DNA from: a bacterium
GTDB taxonomy: Bacteria > Bacteroidota > Bacteroidia > NS11-12g > UBA955
NCBI GenBank assembly: GCA_029945665.1
Contig: JAQSCZ010000027.1
Location: 1 to 37,917 of the forward strand
Reading direction: 5' to 3'
Length of the DNA: 37,917 nt
Each line of letters starts with the position of its first letter. Within the stretch, counting starts at the first letter, position 1. A model generated the notes under the pieces. The model saw only the letters and a program-made list of their open reading frames with translations, did no database searches and was not told the origin of the DNA. Below, piece after piece: positions 5,944-25,700 of the stretch. The translations under genes were made by a program, and so were the position numbers.

Positions 5944-6637
5944 ATTAACCATAACTTGTTTAACAGCTCAAAACCAAGAGTATGTCCTTAAAAGGAAACT
6001 GGATTTTGGCCTATTGGCAGGTTCTTCAACCCTTTTTTTAACAACCATTCATTTACAAAGGCAGTTAAATCCTTTGCCTGATCCTTCCATACGGGCATTG
6101 AAAAGATCTGATGTTAATGCATTCGATAGAATAGCAACCTATCAGTACAGTGGTTTAGCCAATGTTAGCAGTGATGCCTTATTGGTAGGCTCAATTTTAA
6201 TGAAGTCGTATTTTTATTTTAATAAAAAGACAAGGAAGAATGCTTTTAATATTGGTTTAGTATCGTTTCAAAGTTTAATGCTGTCTCAAAGTATTTCAAA
6301 TACTGCAAAACTTTCCTTAAGAAACCGCCCATTGTTGTACAACGAAAATGTGCCATTTGAGGTTAAGCAACATAACTATCAGCGATTGTCTTTTTTCTCA
6401 GCACACACCACTGTTGTTTCTAGTGCCTGTTTTAGTTTTGCATTCGCACAACAAGCCTATATACCCGATGGAAAGTACAATAAATTAATTTGGGCTTCTG
6501 CATTTACAATTCCTGCGGTTGAAGGTTTTTTAAGATTTAAAGCGGGTAAGCACTATCCAACAGATGTGATTGCAGCTTATTTAGTTGGGCTAGGAAGTAG
6601 TTATTTGATGCACAAACTACACCAAAAAAAGAAGTGA
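5927..6637 (+). CDS. PAP2-superfamily phosphatase-like protein, secreted or membrane
   Basis: Type 2 phosphatidic-acid phosphatase fold; such enzymes dephosphorylate lipid phosphates such as undecaprenyl pyrophosphate at the envelope. Motifs run in order: KLSLRNRP (close to KX6RP but one residue shorter), FFSAHTT (the PSGH motif, here with Ser-Ala-His) and RFKAGKHYPTD (RX5HX3D). The ATG at 5927 gives a hydrophobic leader ending TCLTAQ with no positive charge. An in-frame TTG at 5885 would add a Lys-Lys-containing stretch and make a better signal peptide. The ATG lies in the loop of a terminator hairpin, so the start is uncertain. The stop abuts that of the permease on the other strand. The degenerate motif 1 leaves activity in doubt. 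Confidence 0.8.
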   Translation: MLGFFLLTITCLTAQNQEYVLKRKLDFGLLAGSSTLFLTTIHLQRQLNPLPDPSIRALKRSDVNAFDRIATYQYSGLANVSSDALLVGSILMKSYFYFNKKTRKNAFNIGLVSFQSLMLSQSISNTAKLSLRNRPLLYNENVPFEVKQHNYQRLSFFSAHTTVVSSACFSFAFAQQAYIPDGKYNKLIWASAFTIPAVEGFLRFKAGKHYPTDVIAAYLVGLGSSYLMHKLHQKKK

Positions 6638-14179: not shown

Positions 14180-14211
14180 AGCCGTTGGACGCAAGTTCAA
14201 TGGCTTTTTTT
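14180..14211 (+). terminator. Terminator after the sigma/anti-sigma/barrel operon
   Basis: AGCCGTTGGAC (14180-14190) pairs with GTTCAATGGCT (14195-14205), with two G-T wobbles and a GCAA tetraloop of the GNRA type, followed by seven T. It overlaps the stop of the convergent gene by two bases. Confidence 0.8.
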
Positions 14212-17200
14212 ATCGAATAAGTTGAATGACACCATTGATTTTTCTTGTTTCACTATCCTTATTAGGATTCTTGTTTTTAATGGTCATTAAATAATAATAA
14301 ACCCCATTCGGTAATTTACCTTCTGTATTGCGCAGTTCCCCATTCCAACATTGGGTTGGCAAATAACCTTCGAATATCAAAATGCCCCAACGGTCGTATA
14401 TCCATACTCTTGCTTCATCGCATGATGGGTCTATGCCTTCAATTGTAAAGCAATCATTTTTTCCATCATTATCGGGTGTAAATACATTCGGTACCTTTAA
14501 TGTTTTAGAGGGGTCGGTATAAAGCTGTACAACCATAGATTCTGTGTCTTTACAACCGCTGGACGGATGCTCCACTTCTAATACGACCAAGTGTTTGCCA
14601 TCGCGCTTGTAACGGTATTCTGGATTTTCTAAATTACTGAGGGCTCCGCTGTCACCAAAATCCCAAACAGGATTTTTATAATTGGTCGAGGTATTTGTAA
14701 ATTTAAAATAGTTTTCACAAACCCTTGGTTCCATATCGAATGCCGCTATTGGGCTTTCTAAAACTTCTATAATTGTTGAGTCGAATTCTGCAATATTGCA
14801 ACTGAATGAGTCAATTGAACTCAATCTCACTTTGTATTTTCCTTTCTTTGTAAAAATATGTGTTGGGTTTTTTATGGTGTCAATTGCGCTGCCATCGCCA
14901 TAATCCCAAAAGAATTTTTTACCGTATTTGCTAGTATTAGTAAATTTAACGGTTAAAGCCTCGCAGCCAATAGTCGGTGTTGCTGTAAAATGCGCATCGA
15001 CTAAAAAAGTAATTTGAAAATCAATTTTAAAAAATGCGTTGCTACAACGGGGACTAAAATTGGTTGTAAAAGGCGCACCTGTTGTTACTGGAAAATCTTG
15101 GTTGCCACCATTTTCTGGACAACTTGCACACACCGCTTGATACACAACACCTCTTTTGTCAAATCGCGAAGTTCCACCATCCACATGGTCGGGCGTAACA
15201 TTTCCACCAAAATAAGTGGCATATAGCAAGTTTTTAGCATCTTTATTCATTACAAATAAATAAAAATCTTGCTGGTCCGTGATCGGTTGAAGTGCACCAG
15301 GGGTTATGGGTAATTTATTTGTGGTCAGCGAATGCAATCCATCAATAGAAATGTCACTTCCCCAACCCGAAAAATAAATATTATCACACTGGTCGACCAA
15401 AAAAGCAGAAGGCGAAATCTCCGGATTATTAATGCGATAACCAAAGGTTGTTGCTAAATTAACATTGGCTAAATTGGGCGAAAAACGCACGATAAATTGA
15501 CTCGTATTGTTTTTGCCATAAGTGCCCGCCGTTCTTGTAATATTGCCTTCCGTCTGACCGGCACCGTATATTTGACCATTTACATCAATGTCTATAAAAT
15601 AAATCTGATCATAGGCAGAAGTGCCGTAATAACTTGATTGGCGAAAACTGCCATCTTGCTTCAATTTAATAATAAAACCATCTGCTAAACCACCATTGTA
15701 AGAGTTTTGAACACCATTGATTGTGTAATTCATCGCAATGCTTGCGGTGCCGCCACCTATGTACACGAAGCTATCATACAAACGAATAGAATAACATGCA
15801 TCGTCATCGTTGCCACCAGCAAAAGAACTGAATCGCATGGCTGTTAAATTTTTATCTAAACTGAAAATACAGCCTTCTTGCACGGAGCCCTTGCTGCTTT
15901 GAAAGGCATTCTTTATCGGAAAATTATTGCTGTAAGTGGTAGATGCTACAAATACATTATCCAAACTATCCACTACGATATCGCCTCTAAAATCATCCGC
16001 ATAATTATATCTCAATTTCCTTGAATTCAGTCCGTCAAAATCACTGCCACCAATAAAAGTGCCTGCCAACATTGTTGAGCCATCCTTTGAAAGCTTAACA
16101 ACAAATAGGTCGGTTTGACCATTGAAAGACGAATCGTAGCAAGTTTTAATAATGGGAAAGTTTGAGGAATAGGTGGTGCCCATTACCAATAAATTATCTT
16201 GATTATCTGTTACCAAACTATGCGGATATTCATCGTCAGAACCTCCTAAATAAGTACTGTAAAGCAATACAGTACCGGCACTGTCATATTTGTTAATGCC
16301 AATATCACATGATAGATTGGCTGGCGCTCTGCCTCCTCCGGAGCCACCGCCATAAGTGGTTTGAAATGCACCAGTTGTTACTGGAAATGCCCCATCATCG
16401 CCATCAACAATACCTGCATTGTATACAAAAGCCTTTGAATCGTGGGTTGCAGTGAACCCGAAGTTGTCTCCTTGGCTGCCACTATATGTTGCAAATATTA
16501 AAAGCGGATCGATGATGAGTGTTTTTGAGTGGTCGTATTCGCCTAATTCAAAACGCAATTCATAAGTGTTATTATTTTTTCTTAATACATATTTGCATGG
16601 AATAATAAGTGTATCTTCTCCTTTTAGTTGAAAGGCAAAAGGCTTTTCTTCAACCACTATTCCAACGCTGGTTTTAATCGTTAATGCGCCATTTTCGTTA
16701 ATGTTCATGCCGCTTGTATAGGCATATTGCAGTGCAATTTGCGAAGCATCAGCATTTGGCGATAGTATGAAATTATGTTTGATATGAATGCCACTTTCAA
16801 GAACTTCTAAATCTACCCCTTTGTACAATTGACGATAAATTAGTTGATGAAACAAACCTACATTGCTGGCCCATTTTTTAGGATCATTGCCAAGGTAATA
16901 ATTGTGTTGCGTGGCCGATTTATAGAGTGATTGAATATCACAAGGCAAGGCATTTAAAAAATTAACATCATAACGGTGGTAATTCACCTTGAATGATTTT
17001 TTAAGCGTTTTGTACAGGTGAAAATGCTTCCACATCGAGTCATAGGCTAAAGGATCTTTGATTAAAGTTGTAAAACCATTGGCTCGGTAATACAATTTGC
17101 CATTTTGAATAGATTTACTGAATTTAACGATACTATCTTGCTGACCTTTATTTTGAATAAATAGATTTTGAGCATCACCGCATATACTAGCAGTCAGCCA

Positions 17201-17233
17201 TATCGACAATAATAAAAATCCTATCTTACCCAT
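14210..17233 (-). CDS. Secreted SBBP/PKD protein with T9SS type-B sorting domain
   Basis: A 1007-residue exported protein. A signal peptide (MGKIGFLLLSIWLTASICGDAQ) is followed by a DUF7948-like domain to about residue 245 (NLFIQNKGQ, HNYYLGNDPKKWASNV, YKGVDLEV). A run of SBBP-type propeller repeats spans about 250-700 (YSTYLGGSDDEYPHSLV, LFVVKLSKDG). Two PKD domains follow, at about 745-828 (FFWDYGDGS) and 829-905 (PVWDFGDSG). The last roughly 95 residues are a gliding-motility-associated C-terminal domain (VPNVFTPDNDGKND, YDRWGILIFEG, LPNGVYYYLMTIKN). That domain marks cargo exported by the type IX system, often kept at the surface. The role is likely surface or adhesin-like; no enzyme domain is seen. 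A minus-strand -7 box precedes it. Confidence 0.9.
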   Translation of the reverse strand: MGKIGFLLLSIWLTASICGDAQNLFIQNKGQQDSIVKFSKSIQNGKLYYRANGFTTLIKDPLAYDSMWKHFHLYKTLKKSFKVNYHRYDVNFLNALPCDIQSLYKSATQHNYYLGNDPKKWASNVGLFHQLIYRQLYKGVDLEVLESGIHIKHNFILSPNADASQIALQYAYTSGMNINENGALTIKTSVGIVVEEKPFAFQLKGEDTLIIPCKYVLRKNNNTYELRFELGEYDHSKTLIIDPLLIFATYSGSQGDNFGFTATHDSKAFVYNAGIVDGDDGAFPVTTGAFQTTYGGGSGGGRAPANLSCDIGINKYDSAGTVLLYSTYLGGSDDEYPHSLVTDNQDNLLVMGTTYSSNFPIIKTCYDSSFNGQTDLFVVKLSKDGSTMLAGTFIGGSDFDGLNSRKLRYNYADDFRGDIVVDSLDNVFVASTTYSNNFPIKNAFQSSKGSVQEGCIFSLDKNLTAMRFSSFAGGNDDDACYSIRLYDSFVYIGGGTASIAMNYTINGVQNSYNGGLADGFIIKLKQDGSFRQSSYYGTSAYDQIYFIDIDVNGQIYGAGQTEGNITRTAGTYGKNNTSQFIVRFSPNLANVNLATTFGYRINNPEISPSAFLVDQCDNIYFSGWGSDISIDGLHSLTTNKLPITPGALQPITDQQDFYLFVMNKDAKNLLYATYFGGNVTPDHVDGGTSRFDKRGVVYQAVCASCPENGGNQDFPVTTGAPFTTNFSPRCSNAFFKIDFQITFLVDAHFTATPTIGCEALTVKFTNTSKYGKKFFWDYGDGSAIDTIKNPTHIFTKKGKYKVRLSSIDSFSCNIAEFDSTIIEVLESPIAAFDMEPRVCENYFKFTNTSTNYKNPVWDFGDSGALSNLENPEYRYKRDGKHLVVLEVEHPSSGCKDTESMVVQLYTDPSKTLKVPNVFTPDNDGKNDCFTIEGIDPSCDEARVWIYDRWGILIFEGYLPTQCWNGELRNTEGKLPNGVYYYLMTIKNKNPNKDSETRKINGVIQLIR

Positions 17234-20810: not shown

Positions 20811-23795
20811 ATGAGTAAAACTACAATATTTTTAAGAACCAGCATTTTCGCTGTCTCCCTTATTTTGTTATGTGGATGTCCAATTAGTCTTTCTAAACCA
20901 GATGGAGCTAAAGCCAGATATCAATACAAGTATGCTGCCGATTTGTATTCGCAAATTGCACTCAAAATTAAAGATAAGGACACCGCTCAGAGAGTAAGAA
21001 TGGATGCAGCATTTTGTTATAGAATGGCCAATGAGTACGATAAAGCCATAAAAGCTTACGATAAAGTTTTAAAGAAAGATCCAAAAAATACAGAGGCTTT
21101 GTATCAAGTTGGTGTTTTAAAAATGAAAACAGCAGACGGCAAACCAGATGCTTTGAGAGAAGCGAGAGGTTATTTCAAAAGATACTTAGAAGAAGTGCCG
21201 AATGATGAGCGTGTAATTAAAAAAGTAGCCGCCATTGACAGTGTTGAAAGTTGGATTAAAGATGCCCCTAAAAGCAGATACAAAGTAAGCAATGTGAAAC
21301 AAATTAATACGAAAGCTTCAGAATATGCACCCATGATTGCAAGTAAAAAGGATGACAAATTGTATTTTACAACGGATAGAGAAGGTGGAATTCGTAAAAA
21401 ACAAATTGATGGTTATATTGGATTTAGTTACCACGATATATGGTATGCAAACGCAAAAAAAGTAAGAAGGACTGCAAAGAACCCCAATCCTCCATTGGTA
21501 TTCGAGAAGCCTTTGATTGCATTAGGAACCATCAATACAAAATTCAATGATGGTACTTGTTGCTTTGATAGAAAATTTACTACAGTATATTACACACAAT
21601 GTAACGGGACAGATGGTAAATCAAAAACTTGTAAATTATTCCAAGCCAAACTTTCTGGTGACCTTTGGGGTGAAGAGCAAATGTTAGAATTTTGCATTAA
21701 TGATTCTTTTAATTATGCGCATCCAACACTAAGCGACGATGGTAAAAAATTATATTTTTCAAGTGATAGACCTGATGGAATGGGTGGATATGATATTTGG
21801 GTTTGTGCCTACAACCAAAGAGCGAAAGGATGGGGCGAGCCTGTTAATTTAGGGGATAGTATTAACACTCCTCAAAATGAAATGTATCCATATTGGAACA
21901 GTCACGACGCTAATTTATATTTCTCTTCAACTGGTCATTTGGGTATGGGTGGTTTTGATATTTTCCGATCAGAAGGTGGTGGTACAGAATGGACAGCGCC
22001 AGAAAACTTAAGAGCACCTTTGAACAGTGGTGGTGATGATTTTGCGATTACTTTCGATATTCAAAATCCCGACCATGGCTACTTCTCTTCAAACAGAGAA
22101 GGTGGAAAAGGAAGTGATGATATTTATGAATTCAATGTTTCTCCTTTGGTAATTGAGTTAGAAGGCTATGTTTATGAGTGCGTTTTGCCAAAATCAAATC
22201 CAGATAAACATAATTTATCAAAACCATTAGCAAATTCAACCATCACCATTACTAACAACATTGATTCTACAAAAATGATTGTTAAGACCGATGCAGCTGG
22301 TTATTACAGAGTAACTTTAAAAGAAAAAACCAATTACGAAATTTTATGTCAAAATTTAGAATTGTACTATTTTGATGCAGAGGTTAAACAGAAAACAACC
22401 AAAGGCATTAAAATTTCAACCGTGCTTAGACAAGATTTTTGCTTATATTCTCAAATTATCGAAGAAGTTGTTCCAATTTATTACGATTTAGATAAAGCGA
22501 ATATTCGTCCGGATGCTGCAAAAGTGCTTGATGAAAAGATTTTAGTACTATTAAGGAAATATCCAAAACTTAGACTTGAATTAGGTTCACACACCGATTG
22601 TCGTTCATCTTATGCTTACAACGAAAACCTATCTCAAAGAAGAGCGGATAGTGCGGTTGCATACCTAGTAAAAGCAGGTATCGATGAAAGAAGATTAGTA
22701 GCAAAAGGTTATGGGGAGTCTCAATTGGTGAATGATTGTCAGTGTGAGGGTGCTGTTAAAGTGCCTTGTACTGAAGAGAAGCATCAGGAGAACAGAAGAA
22801 CCACCATTAAAACTTTGGATGTTAATTTTGATCCAAAAGTGAGCGAAGTGAAAAGTGGTGATAAAAATAACACCAATGTTAAGCCTATCATTGTTAAAAT
22901 GGAGAATAAGGACAACAAATTCTTGGTGAATGCAGCTGGTAACAATGTTGAAAGCACTGGCAGAGCCTTAGTGGCGCCAGGGGCTGATATCACTATTTCA
23001 ATGATCGAACTAAAGAATCTCATTGATAAAAAAGTTATAAAGGCAGAAGATTTAGTCGGCATTACCCTTACCGATGTTTTGGCAGGTAAGCTAAAACCAA
23101 ACGCAACTGTTAAATTGAATATGCTTAGAATTGGTGCTAAAGATGGTGGTAAAACATTAACGAATGTAGTCGTTAAAATAGCATCTCAAGGCAATCCATA
23201 TACATTCGGTTTCGATGCATTAAAAGCGTTGGATGCAACAGTGAATACAGAAGAAGCAGAAATTACTTTTAAAAATGTAAACAAAAATGCAATGCCCAAT
23301 GGAGCTATTGAAAGCAATGGAACCAAAGGTGCTGCGAATACAACACCAAGTGTCACTGCGCCGGTAGTTCCAAAAGCCGATACAGTTTCAATGGCTGATT
23401 ACAAAACGGTTACTTTGATTGAAGATGGCGGTGCTCTTATGATCCCAACCATGGTAAATGATAAAGAGAATGTGAATTGGAGTTATGAGGTTACAAGTAG
23501 AAAAGTTGAAATTACTGAAGACATGGTTAAACAATTGTTAGATAGCAAAACCATCAGCAAGAAGGATTTTGAAGATGGCGAGTCAATTAAACTAACAGAT
23601 GGCACCAAATTACCTAGTAATACCTTTGTTATTGCAACACTTCAAATTGGCGATGTAACCCTTGAAAACGTTCGTGTGGTTATCAGTACGAAAATTACTG
23701 TGCCTACCATTGGTGGTGCAAATGTTATTATGAAAAAAATGTTTGCAGTAGTAAAGAATAAGACACTTTACATGAAGCCAAAAGAGAAAAGATAG
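20811..23795 (+). CDS. PorE-like lipoprotein: TPR, PD40 propeller, CarboxypepD-reg, OmpA, plus duplicated C-terminal modules
   Basis: A 994-residue lipoprotein with lipobox LLCGC (Cys23). TPR-like helices run at about 30-150 (AAFCYRMANEYDKAIKAYDK). PD40 propeller repeats run at about 180-445 (KLYFTTDREGG, KLYFSSDRPDGMGGYDIW, NLYFSSTGHLGMGGFDIF, GYFSSNREGG). A carboxypeptidase-regulatory-like sandwich spans about 450-535. An OmpA-like peptidoglycan-binding domain spans about 550-670 (YYDLDKANIRPDA, GSHTDC, NLSQRRADSAVAYL). This order matches PorE, which anchors the type IX system to peptidoglycan. Unlike PorE as I know it (about 670 aa), some 320 residues follow, with two related modules near 726-793 and 898-961. 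Two PorG-like genes come next. A T9SS role is inference from architecture and context. Confidence 0.85.
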   Translation: MSKTTIFLRTSIFAVSLILLCGCPISLSKPDGAKARYQYKYAADLYSQIALKIKDKDTAQRVRMDAAFCYRMANEYDKAIKAYDKVLKKDPKNTEALYQVGVLKMKTADGKPDALREARGYFKRYLEEVPNDERVIKKVAAIDSVESWIKDAPKSRYKVSNVKQINTKASEYAPMIASKKDDKLYFTTDREGGIRKKQIDGYIGFSYHDIWYANAKKVRRTAKNPNPPLVFEKPLIALGTINTKFNDGTCCFDRKFTTVYYTQCNGTDGKSKTCKLFQAKLSGDLWGEEQMLEFCINDSFNYAHPTLSDDGKKLYFSSDRPDGMGGYDIWVCAYNQRAKGWGEPVNLGDSINTPQNEMYPYWNSHDANLYFSSTGHLGMGGFDIFRSEGGGTEWTAPENLRAPLNSGGDDFAITFDIQNPDHGYFSSNREGGKGSDDIYEFNVSPLVIELEGYVYECVLPKSNPDKHNLSKPLANSTITITNNIDSTKMIVKTDAAGYYRVTLKEKTNYEILCQNLELYYFDAEVKQKTTKGIKISTVLRQDFCLYSQIIEEVVPIYYDLDKANIRPDAAKVLDEKILVLLRKYPKLRLELGSHTDCRSSYAYNENLSQRRADSAVAYLVKAGIDERRLVAKGYGESQLVNDCQCEGAVKVPCTEEKHQENRRTTIKTLDVNFDPKVSEVKSGDKNNTNVKPIIVKMENKDNKFLVNAAGNNVESTGRALVAPGADITISMIELKNLIDKKVIKAEDLVGITLTDVLAGKLKPNATVKLNMLRIGAKDGGKTLTNVVVKIASQGNPYTFGFDALKALDATVNTEEAEITFKNVNKNAMPNGAIESNGTKGAANTTPSVTAPVVPKADTVSMADYKTVTLIEDGGALMIPTMVNDKENVNWSYEVTSRKVEITEDMVKQLLDSKTISKKDFEDGESIKLTDGTKLPSNTFVIATLQIGDVTLENVRVVISTKITVPTIGGANVIMKKMFAVVKNKTLYMKPKEKR

Positions 23796-23932: not shown

Positions 23933-23954
23933 TATGTCAGTAATGAAATTACAC

Positions 23955-24848
23955 ATGAAAAAAATCTGTTACTTAGCACTATCACTGTTTTTTGCGCTCA
24001 ATGCTCAGGCTGTTGAGAAAAAAAATGGTACTTCGCTAGATTTTGGGTTATACCTAGGTGGGTCTAACTATTGGGGTGATTTAACCAGGGATTATCAACC
24101 ACTGTGGAGCAAAACAAAATTGGCTGGAGGTTTATTAATTCGATACAATATAAATCCATACATTACATTCAAGGGATCTGCCGTTTATGGTCAAATTCAA
24201 GGGTCTGATAAGAATTATAGCTACGATAAGTATAGAACTCGCAGAAATTTAAGTTTTAAATCAGATATCGTTGAATTCTCTGCTCAGGTAGAATGGAATA
24301 TTTTAGGGTATGAAAATACAAGAACAAGTTATGGTTGGTCCCCTTATTTATTTGGAGGCGTTTCCGTTTTTAGGTTCAACCCCAAAGCTAAATTCAATTA
24401 TATATCAGGTCTTCATGATCCATCGCTTCAATCGCAAGATGGGGAATGGATTGAACTGCAACCTTTGGGAACAGAAGGTCAAGAAACTACTAAATTCAAC
24501 GATAAAAGAAGATACTCTCTAACACAAATAAGCATTCCTCTTGGAATAGGTTCAAAATGGCAATTAGATGACCATTGGGCCATAGGGGTTGAATTTGGTG
24601 TTCGCAAAACCTTTACAGATTATTTGGATGATGTTTCTTCTATTTATGTAGATGATCAAATTGTGGGTGGGGCAAGTGGTCCAATGGCAGTGGCATTAAA
24701 AGATAGAAGCGCTGAATTGCCAAATGAAATAAAATTTGATAACAATGATCCAAGAGGTAATCCTAAAACCAAAGATTGGTATTTAATCACAGGCATTACG
24801 CTAACGTATAGAATTCTTGGTGGTCGCCAACCTTGTTTTAATTTCTAG
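23955..24848 (+). CDS. PorG-like DUF6089 outer-membrane protein, copy 1
   Basis: DUF6089 includes PorG, the outer-membrane partner of the type IX secretion ring. The signal peptide is MKKICYLALSLFFALNAQA if translation starts at 23955. The ATG at 23934 would add seven residues but sits against the promoter -7 box. Family features are LDFGLYLGGSNYWGDL at the mature N-terminus, an RYNINPYITFKGSAVYGQI strand, EFGVRKTFTDYLDDVS and a final WYLITGITLTYRI strand. It ends in CFNF. The second copy follows after 24 bases, then uppS and bamA. A porG-uppS-bamA order is, as I recall, also found in Porphyromonas. A T9SS role is inferred from family and context. Confidence 0.85.
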   Translation: MKKICYLALSLFFALNAQAVEKKNGTSLDFGLYLGGSNYWGDLTRDYQPLWSKTKLAGGLLIRYNINPYITFKGSAVYGQIQGSDKNYSYDKYRTRRNLSFKSDIVEFSAQVEWNILGYENTRTSYGWSPYLFGGVSVFRFNPKAKFNYISGLHDPSLQSQDGEWIELQPLGTEGQETTKFNDKRRYSLTQISIPLGIGSKWQLDDHWAIGVEFGVRKTFTDYLDDVSSIYVDDQIVGGASGPMAVALKDRSAELPNEIKFDNNDPRGNPKTKDWYLITGITLTYRILGGRQPCFNF

Positions 24849-24872: not shown

Positions 24873-25700
24873 GTGTCATATTTAAAGTATTTTTTAGCAG
24901 TATTTTTATGCTGTAGTTTATCTTTTATATCCTTTGCTCAATATAGGAATGGTAAATCTGAAATTGGATTGCTTTTAGGTGGAAGCAATTATTTTGGTGA
25001 CTTAGCGCCAGAAATTAAATTTAATGAAACGAAATTCAGTTGTGGTTTTTTTGTCAAACAAAACCACACCAAATTCTTTAGCAGTCGCTACCAATTTGCG
25101 TATGCAAGGATTGCTGCATCAGATAAAAATTTCAAAGCCAATGAATATCGCAACTTGTCCTTTTTTAGTAATATTTATGAATTAGGTTATAATGCTGAGT
25201 TTAATTTTTTGCCGTTTGGCATGAATGTGCTTGAAAAGAATTCAACGACCTTTGTTTTTGCTGGATTTAATATGTTTTATTTTAATCCTAAAACCAGACT
25301 ATTGAACGGTGATAAAGTGGAATTGAGAGATTTTGGAACAGAAGGTCAAGTTTTAAATAATAAAAGAAAATATTCCCTCATTCAACCCTCCATTACTTTA
25401 GGATTGGGGTATAAAGTAAATATTAGTGATCGATGGGTGATAGGAACAGAACTCGGTTTTCGTAAAACCTTTACAGATTATTTAGACGACACAAAGGACG
25501 TTTACACCGATTATAATGCTTTGAATGCAAAACAAGGAACCAATGCAGCCAACCTCTCGCAGGCACAGGTTCTAGATGGCCATCCAGCCATAGATGCCAA
25601 TACGATGAGAGGCGATACCCATCTTAAAGATTGGTATTTTATTGCAGGAGTAACTATTTCTTATAGATTTGTAACTACTTTTTGTAATCATCCGTTTTAA
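24873..25700 (+). CDS. PorG-like DUF6089 outer-membrane protein, copy 2
   Basis: A 275-residue paralogue of the preceding protein. Shared blocks are GLLLGGSNYFGDLAPE, the YNAEFNF strand, DFGTEGQVLNNKRKYSL (the first copy has PLGTEGQETTKFNDKRRYSL), LGFRKTFTDYLDDTKDVY and KDWYFIAGVTISYRF. Both end in a short Cys-containing tail, here CNHPF. The start is a GTG at 24873 giving the signal peptide MSYLKYFLAVFLCCSLSFIS with cleavage near FAQ. The 24-base gap and lack of a promoter imply co-transcription with copy 1. Sequence drift between the copies is large, so the duplication is probably old. Confidence 0.84.
   Translation: MSYLKYFLAVFLCCSLSFISFAQYRNGKSEIGLLLGGSNYFGDLAPEIKFNETKFSCGFFVKQNHTKFFSSRYQFAYARIAASDKNFKANEYRNLSFFSNIYELGYNAEFNFLPFGMNVLEKNSTTFVFAGFNMFYFNPKTRLLNGDKVELRDFGTEGQVLNNKRKYSLIQPSITLGLGYKVNISDRWVIGTELGFRKTFTDYLDDTKDVYTDYNALNAKQGTNAANLSQAQVLDGHPAIDANTMRGDTHLKDWYFIAGVTISYRFVTTFCNHPF

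Follow-up and report, generated by a model that had tools for sequence, protein, structure and literature searches.

Retropepsin-fold domains without the catalytic motif behind the OmpA domain of a PorE-like protein in an order of Bacteroidota

The window analysed here is a stretch of 37,917 nucleotides, positions 1 to 37,917 of contig JAQSCZ010000027.1 (assembly GCA_029945665.1), from a bacterium of the phylum Bacteroidota (Bacteroidia; NS11-12g; UBA955). Its forward strand carries a gene for a PorE-like protein of 994 amino acids, in which an OmpA domain is followed by a C-terminal extension of two modules, designated M1 and M2. The gene has the following features, in window coordinates:

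20811..23795, forward strand: PorE/CHU_0125-like OmpA-family lipoprotein-like gene with a C-terminal pseudo-retropepsin extension (open reading frame (ORF), 994 amino acids)
20997..21230, forward strand: TPR region, residues 63-140 (Pfam TPR_14/TPR_19)
21273..22160, forward strand: beta-propeller (PD40) region, residues ~155-450 (Pfam PD40 E 3.6e-13, best stretch 297-331; outer limits set by analogy with PorE)
22479..22748, forward strand: OmpA peptidoglycan-binding domain, residues 557-646 (Pfam OmpA E 7.1e-15)
22881..23294, forward strand: module M1, pseudo-retropepsin domain, residues 691-828 (models, Foldseek, VIA-align, HHalign)
22974..22982, forward strand: A722-P723-G724, the M1 residues aligned to D-T-G (HHalign alignment)
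23295..23396, forward strand: inter-module linker of low model confidence, residues 829-862 (pLDDT below 50 at residues 834-859, model residues 174-199)
23397..23792, forward strand: module M2, pseudo-retropepsin domain and the more widespread copy, residues 863-994 (family matches of relatives, VIA-align, HHalign)
23487..23495, forward strand: E893-V894-T895, the M2 residues aligned to D-T-G (alignment with three intact retropepsins)
23598..23618, forward strand: D930-S936, DGTKLPS, a flap-like hairpin with the near-invariant K933 (alignment with DTG-bearing retropepsins)
23706..23714, forward strand: T966-I967-G968, remnant of the hydrophobic-hydrophobic-Gly motif (aligned to LLVG/LLLG/LLG of DTG-bearing retropepsins)

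PorE is believed to link the machinery of the type IX secretion system (T9SS) to the cell wall. The Porphyromonas gingivalis protein (PG1058) is reported to be an outer membrane lipoprotein that binds a peptidoglycan fragment through its OmpA-like domain (PMC7192894), to bind the barrel PorP (PMC9143113) and to be required for T9SS secretion (PMC7192894, PMC9143113), and PorE has been counted among the poorly characterised T9SS parts (PMC8754138). The window protein resembles it in its succession of TPR, propeller and OmpA domains, all above the Pfam cut-offs, in a lipobox-like N-terminus (LLCGC, judged by eye) and in the presence of T9SS genes in the genome. A CarboxypepD_reg match (E 0.002, below its own cut-off) sits where the PorE domain order places the CRD, completing the TPR, propeller, CRD and OmpA arrangement. 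The P. gingivalis protein is described as having four domains with the OmpA_C-like one (534-668) last (PMC7192894), whereas here one or two retropepsin-fold domains lie beyond it, depending on the relative.

The first-pass annotation had called the product a PorE-like lipoprotein, and the domain order agrees with this, but the score of the protein is below the curated cut-offs of both PorE (NF052230, 409.3 bits, cut-off 600) and the CHU_0125 family of OmpA-like outer membrane integrity proteins (NF053607, 417.7 bits, cut-off 620). The CHU_0125 match spans residues 10-670, and its 639-position model covers nothing past residue 670. The two-module relative L008, whose N-terminus is cut short, scored 349.4 bits against CHU_0125 and 329.4 against PorE, and the paralogue in the window's own genome 328.2 and 287.2, respectively. 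A one-module relative scored better as PorE (430.5 versus 345.2), as did an outgroup homologue (551.6 versus 445.9), and none of the relatives scored with NCBIfam reached either cut-off. The gene is therefore described here as PorE-like, in a T9SS-bearing genome, and not as a proven PorE.

The Pfam OmpA domain ends at residue 646 and leaves 348 residues beyond it, where two related units had already been placed from the sequence of the window. Alignment of an M2 profile (87 sequences) with an M1 profile (18 sequences) by HHalign gave a probability of 94.5 and a score of 48.2 over 124 columns; the maximum for 100 column-shuffled M1 profiles was 23.1, and the reversed M1 profile scored 14.3. Thus, M1 and M2 are homologous, and structure prediction returned the same fold for both. 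The limits first drawn around the units were too narrow: residues 726-793 and 898-961, numbers that are about one residue off, cover the stretch that begins with the helix and ends with the strand following 'IG', and secondary structure assignment of the models (DSSP) placed several strands before the helix in each module.

No name had been offered for this module in the first-pass annotation, and here its reading gave way, as both copies match a well-known domain, the retropepsin-like fold of clan AA aspartic proteases, without the catalytic motif. The extension of the window protein on its own had no match among PDB sequences or in NCBIfam, and its Pfam matches were below threshold: gag-asp_proteas (PF13975, E 0.093) and Asp_protease_2 (PF13650, E 0.14) in the second half, and a YqgQ-like family (E 0.029) on M1. 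The weak matches in the second half provided the lead to retropepsins, and the identification itself came through relatives and models rather than single-sequence searches. When M2 members were scanned sequence by sequence against Pfam and NCBIfam (E up to 1), Asp_protease_2 was matched by 49 of 87 copies (best E 6.8e-5), gag-asp_proteas by 45 (best E 1.1e-5) and the clan AA aspartic protease family TIGR02281 by 20 (best E 3.3e-5), with any other family matched by at most seven. The window's own M2 copy reached an E value of only ~0.03 to the Pfam families, under their curated cut-offs. In the same Pfam scan neither Asp_protease_2 nor gag-asp_proteas was matched by the 18 M1 members, which hit 11 weak families (best E 0.0065, at most three members each), none deemed meaningful. 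Profile searches of PDB sequences returned CFAP115, Cas1 and calpain at E 0.06-1, which were taken as chance.

The structural models gave a consistent picture. In the AlphaFold model of the two-module extension (54-sequence alignment), the block means of the predicted local distance difference test (pLDDT) were mostly above 90 in M1 and ~82-93 in M2, with a predicted template modelling score (pTM) of 0.45; M1 modelled alone (18 sequences) had a pLDDT of 92.4 and a pTM of 0.86. The top Foldseek match of the two-module model in the PDB was 9iy9 (E 1.0e-7), followed by the Rickettsia retropepsin APRc (5c9f_A, E 2.0e-6) and then many Ddi1 domains and pepsins. M1 alone matched APRc best (5c9b_D, E 2.3e-6) and also RloA of Pseudomonas (9g58_A, E 3.2e-3). 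In VIA-align superpositions on APRc, M2 of the joint model had a Z score of 11.5 (5c9b_D, root-mean-square deviation (rmsd) 3.0, 108 residues aligned) and M1 alone a Z score of 10.1 (5c9b_A, rmsd 3.0, 111 aligned). An immunoglobulin-like or other common beta module was not indicated: the structure-search matches inspected (the 50 listed in each search) are aspartic proteases or proteins with that fold, as judged by their titles, with one exception, a Mycobacterium protein domain (4ehc). At the sequence level, a profile built from six intact DTG- or DSG-bearing retropepsins of the phylum (L114-L116, L146, L154 and L159) aligned to M2 with an HHalign score of 111.6 (maximum of 100 shuffles, 20.3) and to M1 with 62.0 (maximum, 28.0). 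Both modules are thus retropepsin-like (clan AA) aspartic-protease domains, and this fold identity is secure.

According to the classical rule, an aspartic protease needs its catalytic motif, and domains without D-T/S-G should not work as such. In an alignment of 89 M2 copies with three intact retropepsins, DTG was found at the catalytic site in none of the copies, and its Gly was equally absent from all 89. D-T/S-G is likewise missing from all 18 M1 copies; such strings occur in 14 of 88 M2 copies, all away from the catalytic site. Neither module thus has the catalytic motif of an active clan AA peptidase, and both have probably ceased to cut. It would be very surprising if they had kept protease activity by way of an unusual active site, as the Gly of the motif is gone from every M2 copy and the window protein has E893 (M2) and A722 (M1) at the Asp position, although an Asp is retained at the first catalytic position in 65 of 89 M2 copies. 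Other parts of the retropepsin domain have been kept in M2. The hydrophobic-hydrophobic-Gly motif is recognisable, with Gly968 in 86 of 89 copies and Leu, Ile or Met at position 967 in 85; F920 is invariant (89/89), and K933 is conserved in 88 of 89. The hairpin that carries K933 would correspond, by alignment, to the retropepsin flap.

Selection on the modules was estimated from the ratio of nonsynonymous to synonymous substitution rates (dN/dS) in the window gene and four close relatives (10 pairs, saturated pairs left out); with synonymous sites near saturation (mean pS 0.56-0.71), the ratios are rough. Mean dN/dS was 0.058 for M1 and 0.040 for M2 (six of ten pairs usable for each), compared with 0.021 for OmpA (9/10 pairs), 0.022 for TPR (10/10) and 0.036 for the propeller (9/10), and was highest in the linker (0.130 for residues 806-862; 8/10). 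The modules are therefore under purifying selection, slightly less strict than that on the core. Since the motif is gone yet dN/dS stays at ~0.04-0.06, M1 and M2 look like maintained pseudoproteases. That they are decaying leftovers of a protease fusion would account for the lost active site, but is hardly credible given these ratios among the five close relatives and the presence of the extension across the order. Passive beta-rich spacers or stabilisers without a specific ligand would fit the C-terminal position behind linkers, the many conserved positions that are hydrophobic or glycine, and module ratios a little above those of the core domains. We consider this rather unlikely, as the module ratios are well below that of the linker, a polar residue (K933) is nearly invariant, and the extension was present in every order orthologue seen with an intact C-terminus.

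Retropepsins work as dimers, and M1 and M2 might accordingly pair in the manner of the two pepsin lobes or of retropepsin dimer subunits, with a composite cleft that would bind an extended peptide; in one-module relatives, two molecules would have to pair. RloA is reported to form dimers (PMC12239564), the phylum contains tandem retropepsin proteins with two DTG motifs per chain (L117, L118), and 9iy9, the top structural match, is a putative Bacteroides fragilis endopeptidase of 420 residues that aligns to the two-module model over 328 columns. The Thr and Gly of the DTG loop, which help lock retropepsin dimers, are lost in the modules, and the joint model has a pTM of only 0.45 although most of both domains have pLDDT values near or above 90. 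Because of this pTM and because the long alignments to pepsin-type enzymes have an rmsd of ~16-19 Å, a pepsin-like two-lobe arrangement is not predicted by the joint model, and the pairing of modules appears improbable, if worth considering. A similarly doubtful extension of this idea is that a Bacteroidota lineage turned a retropepsin into a non-catalytic T9SS peptide clamp, in which the dead cleft of M1 plus M2, or of two one-module molecules, might keep a periplasmic stretch of a T9SS partner or of cargo fixed at the cell wall; a pseudoprotease would then be part of a secretion machine.

Because the cutting motif is gone while the fold has been kept, we favour, with moderate confidence, the reading of the extension as two non-catalytic retropepsin-fold docking domains behind the peptidoglycan-binding domain of a PorE-type lipoprotein. 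The PorE-like lipoprotein would be held at the cell wall by its OmpA domain. The modules would retain a conserved surface, made up of the flap-like DGTKLPS hairpin, K933 and the invariant F920, and this surface may dock a peptide or protein partner in the periplasm, which would give the wall-anchored lipoprotein an additional hold on a component of the T9SS or envelope. A contact of the modules with T9SS or periplasmic parts, as first suggested for this extension, is plausible.

The extension was sought in 147 genomes, of which 108 (G000-G107) share the genus, family or order of the window and 39 (G108-G146) are others; those of the latter with known kinship belong to the same class. Matches were found in 94 of the 108 order genomes and in none of the 39 others, and the window's own genome has the extension at one locus only. 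In loci taken from 90 of the 94 matching genomes, the extension and a PorE-like core were encoded in one ORF at 89 (L095 holds only the end), and the 90th (G045) is a 192-amino-acid fragment. Among the 14 order genomes without a match, four (G004, G032, G050, G069) have the core cut by a contig end, and in the other ten no orthologue with an intact C-terminus was recognised. The best homologues in five class-level genomes (G109-G113, one per genome) end 29-58 residues past the aligned core, and five homologues from named contigs (L045-L049, including those of Aquimarina amphilecti and Algoriphagus algorifonticola) stop 0-9 residues beyond it. When 394 genomes of the phylum were searched with an M2 profile, with at most ten candidates scored per genome, seven matched, namely the window's own genome and six others, with no other order member among the matches listed. 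The six were five DTG-bearing retropepsins (L114-L118) and one chance-like match (L119), and none was a PorE fusion. Within the set of genomes searched, the extension thus appears to be specific to this order.

Judged from the length of the extension and from alignment, two modules are present in 18 of the 89 proteins and one, corresponding to M2, in 71; M1 is placed between the end of OmpA and M2. In a quick core tree (87 order rows and five outgroup rows), the 17 two-module proteins included cluster together (SH-aLRT 93, a branch that is not one of the strongest), so that one change is needed. The most economical interpretation is that M2 was acquired first, no later than the ancestor of groups f1 and f2, and that M1 was added afterwards in a single f1 lineage. 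A tree of the modules has M1 as a single clade on a long branch (2.78; placement support 76), and the M2 group has a support of 50; with the placement of M1 weak, its origin as a duplicate of M2 is not shown. A second retropepsin capture is considered because M1 scores 62.0 against the DTG-bearing retropepsins and 48.2 against M2, and it is possibly the source of M1, a copy of M2 being the other candidate.

Intact retropepsins also occur elsewhere in the order: the ORFs inspected, eight of 139-178 amino acids and one of 305, all carry DTGA or DSGA. In the window's own genome, Asp_protease_2 was matched only at the present locus (E 0.083). The ORF at 1441-2355 of L159 (reverse strand; G090) combines N-terminal hydrophobic stretches with a retropepsin domain bearing DSGA; the PorE fusion is present in this genome as well. 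In L114 (G318), the ORF at 1-1890 has cyclophilin and FKBP-like regions (by eye) followed by a C-terminal retropepsin with an intact DTGA.

The genome encodes a T9SS, with SprA (2444 bits), two GldN-type matches above the cut-off, and PorG adjacent to the PorE-like gene:

23934..24848, forward strand: PorG, the next gene downstream (NF052316 T9SS_PorG, 167.2 bits, cut-off 130)

PorG is followed by a second DUF6089 gene, an undecaprenyl diphosphate synthase gene and an Omp85 gene, and the PorG neighbourhood is present in the genus relatives L037-L040. The tandem DUF6089 genes lie at 23934-24848 and 24873-25700 (forward strand), the first being the one above the PorG cut-off; in relatives, matches across the two kinds share 34-38% identity. 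This second copy of PorG type might act as a partner to the altered PorE-like gene. Upstream, with two genes between, 14210-17233 (reverse strand) encodes a large protein, a likely T9SS substrate, in which DUF7948, SBBP and PKD are accompanied by a CHU_C type IX secretion signal. In genome G000, two GldN/PorN-type genes are close together on contig C83 (4563-8225; L141, L142). In relative L038, an in-frame stop at position 6109-6111 (codon 37 of the orthologue) may represent an assembly error or a later start.

Several observations weigh against the docking proposal. The docking partner, the binding and its mechanism are ones that we infer, as is the T9SS role itself, and the protein and L008 score slightly better as CHU_0125 than as PorE, whose cut-off is missed. 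With an Asp present in most M2 copies, some relatives may have retained a degree of chemistry, the conserved M2 residues may be structural, and module dN/dS is somewhat above that of the core domains. Furthermore, the ten order genomes noted above seem to be without the gene, three of them at least 90% complete (G010, G024, G046), and the flanks sampled for L041-L044 showed none of the window's neighbouring genes.

Among known systems, M1 and M2 share fold and domain length with APRc, RloA and the TIGR02281 clan AA family. RloA is described as an active enzyme with a signal peptide and a DTG active site that cleaves polyglutamate, and is an example of a retropepsin functioning in the envelope (PMC12239564); M1 and M2 differ from it in the missing motif and in their placement on an OmpA-type wall anchor. 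The structural matches of the two-module model also include basic 7S globulin and conglutin gamma, plant storage proteins with the aspartic-protease fold that are non-enzymatic; they differ in being of the two-lobe pepsin family, unrelated to OmpA or secretion. No report of a PorE-like protein with a pseudo-retropepsin tail was found among the literature matches listed.

The conservation of a pseudoprotease tail across the order suggests what the wall end of a PorE-like protein might touch, and the tail could serve as a removable handle for probing this protein. The tail would also represent a retropepsin-fold pseudoenzyme in a bacterial envelope.

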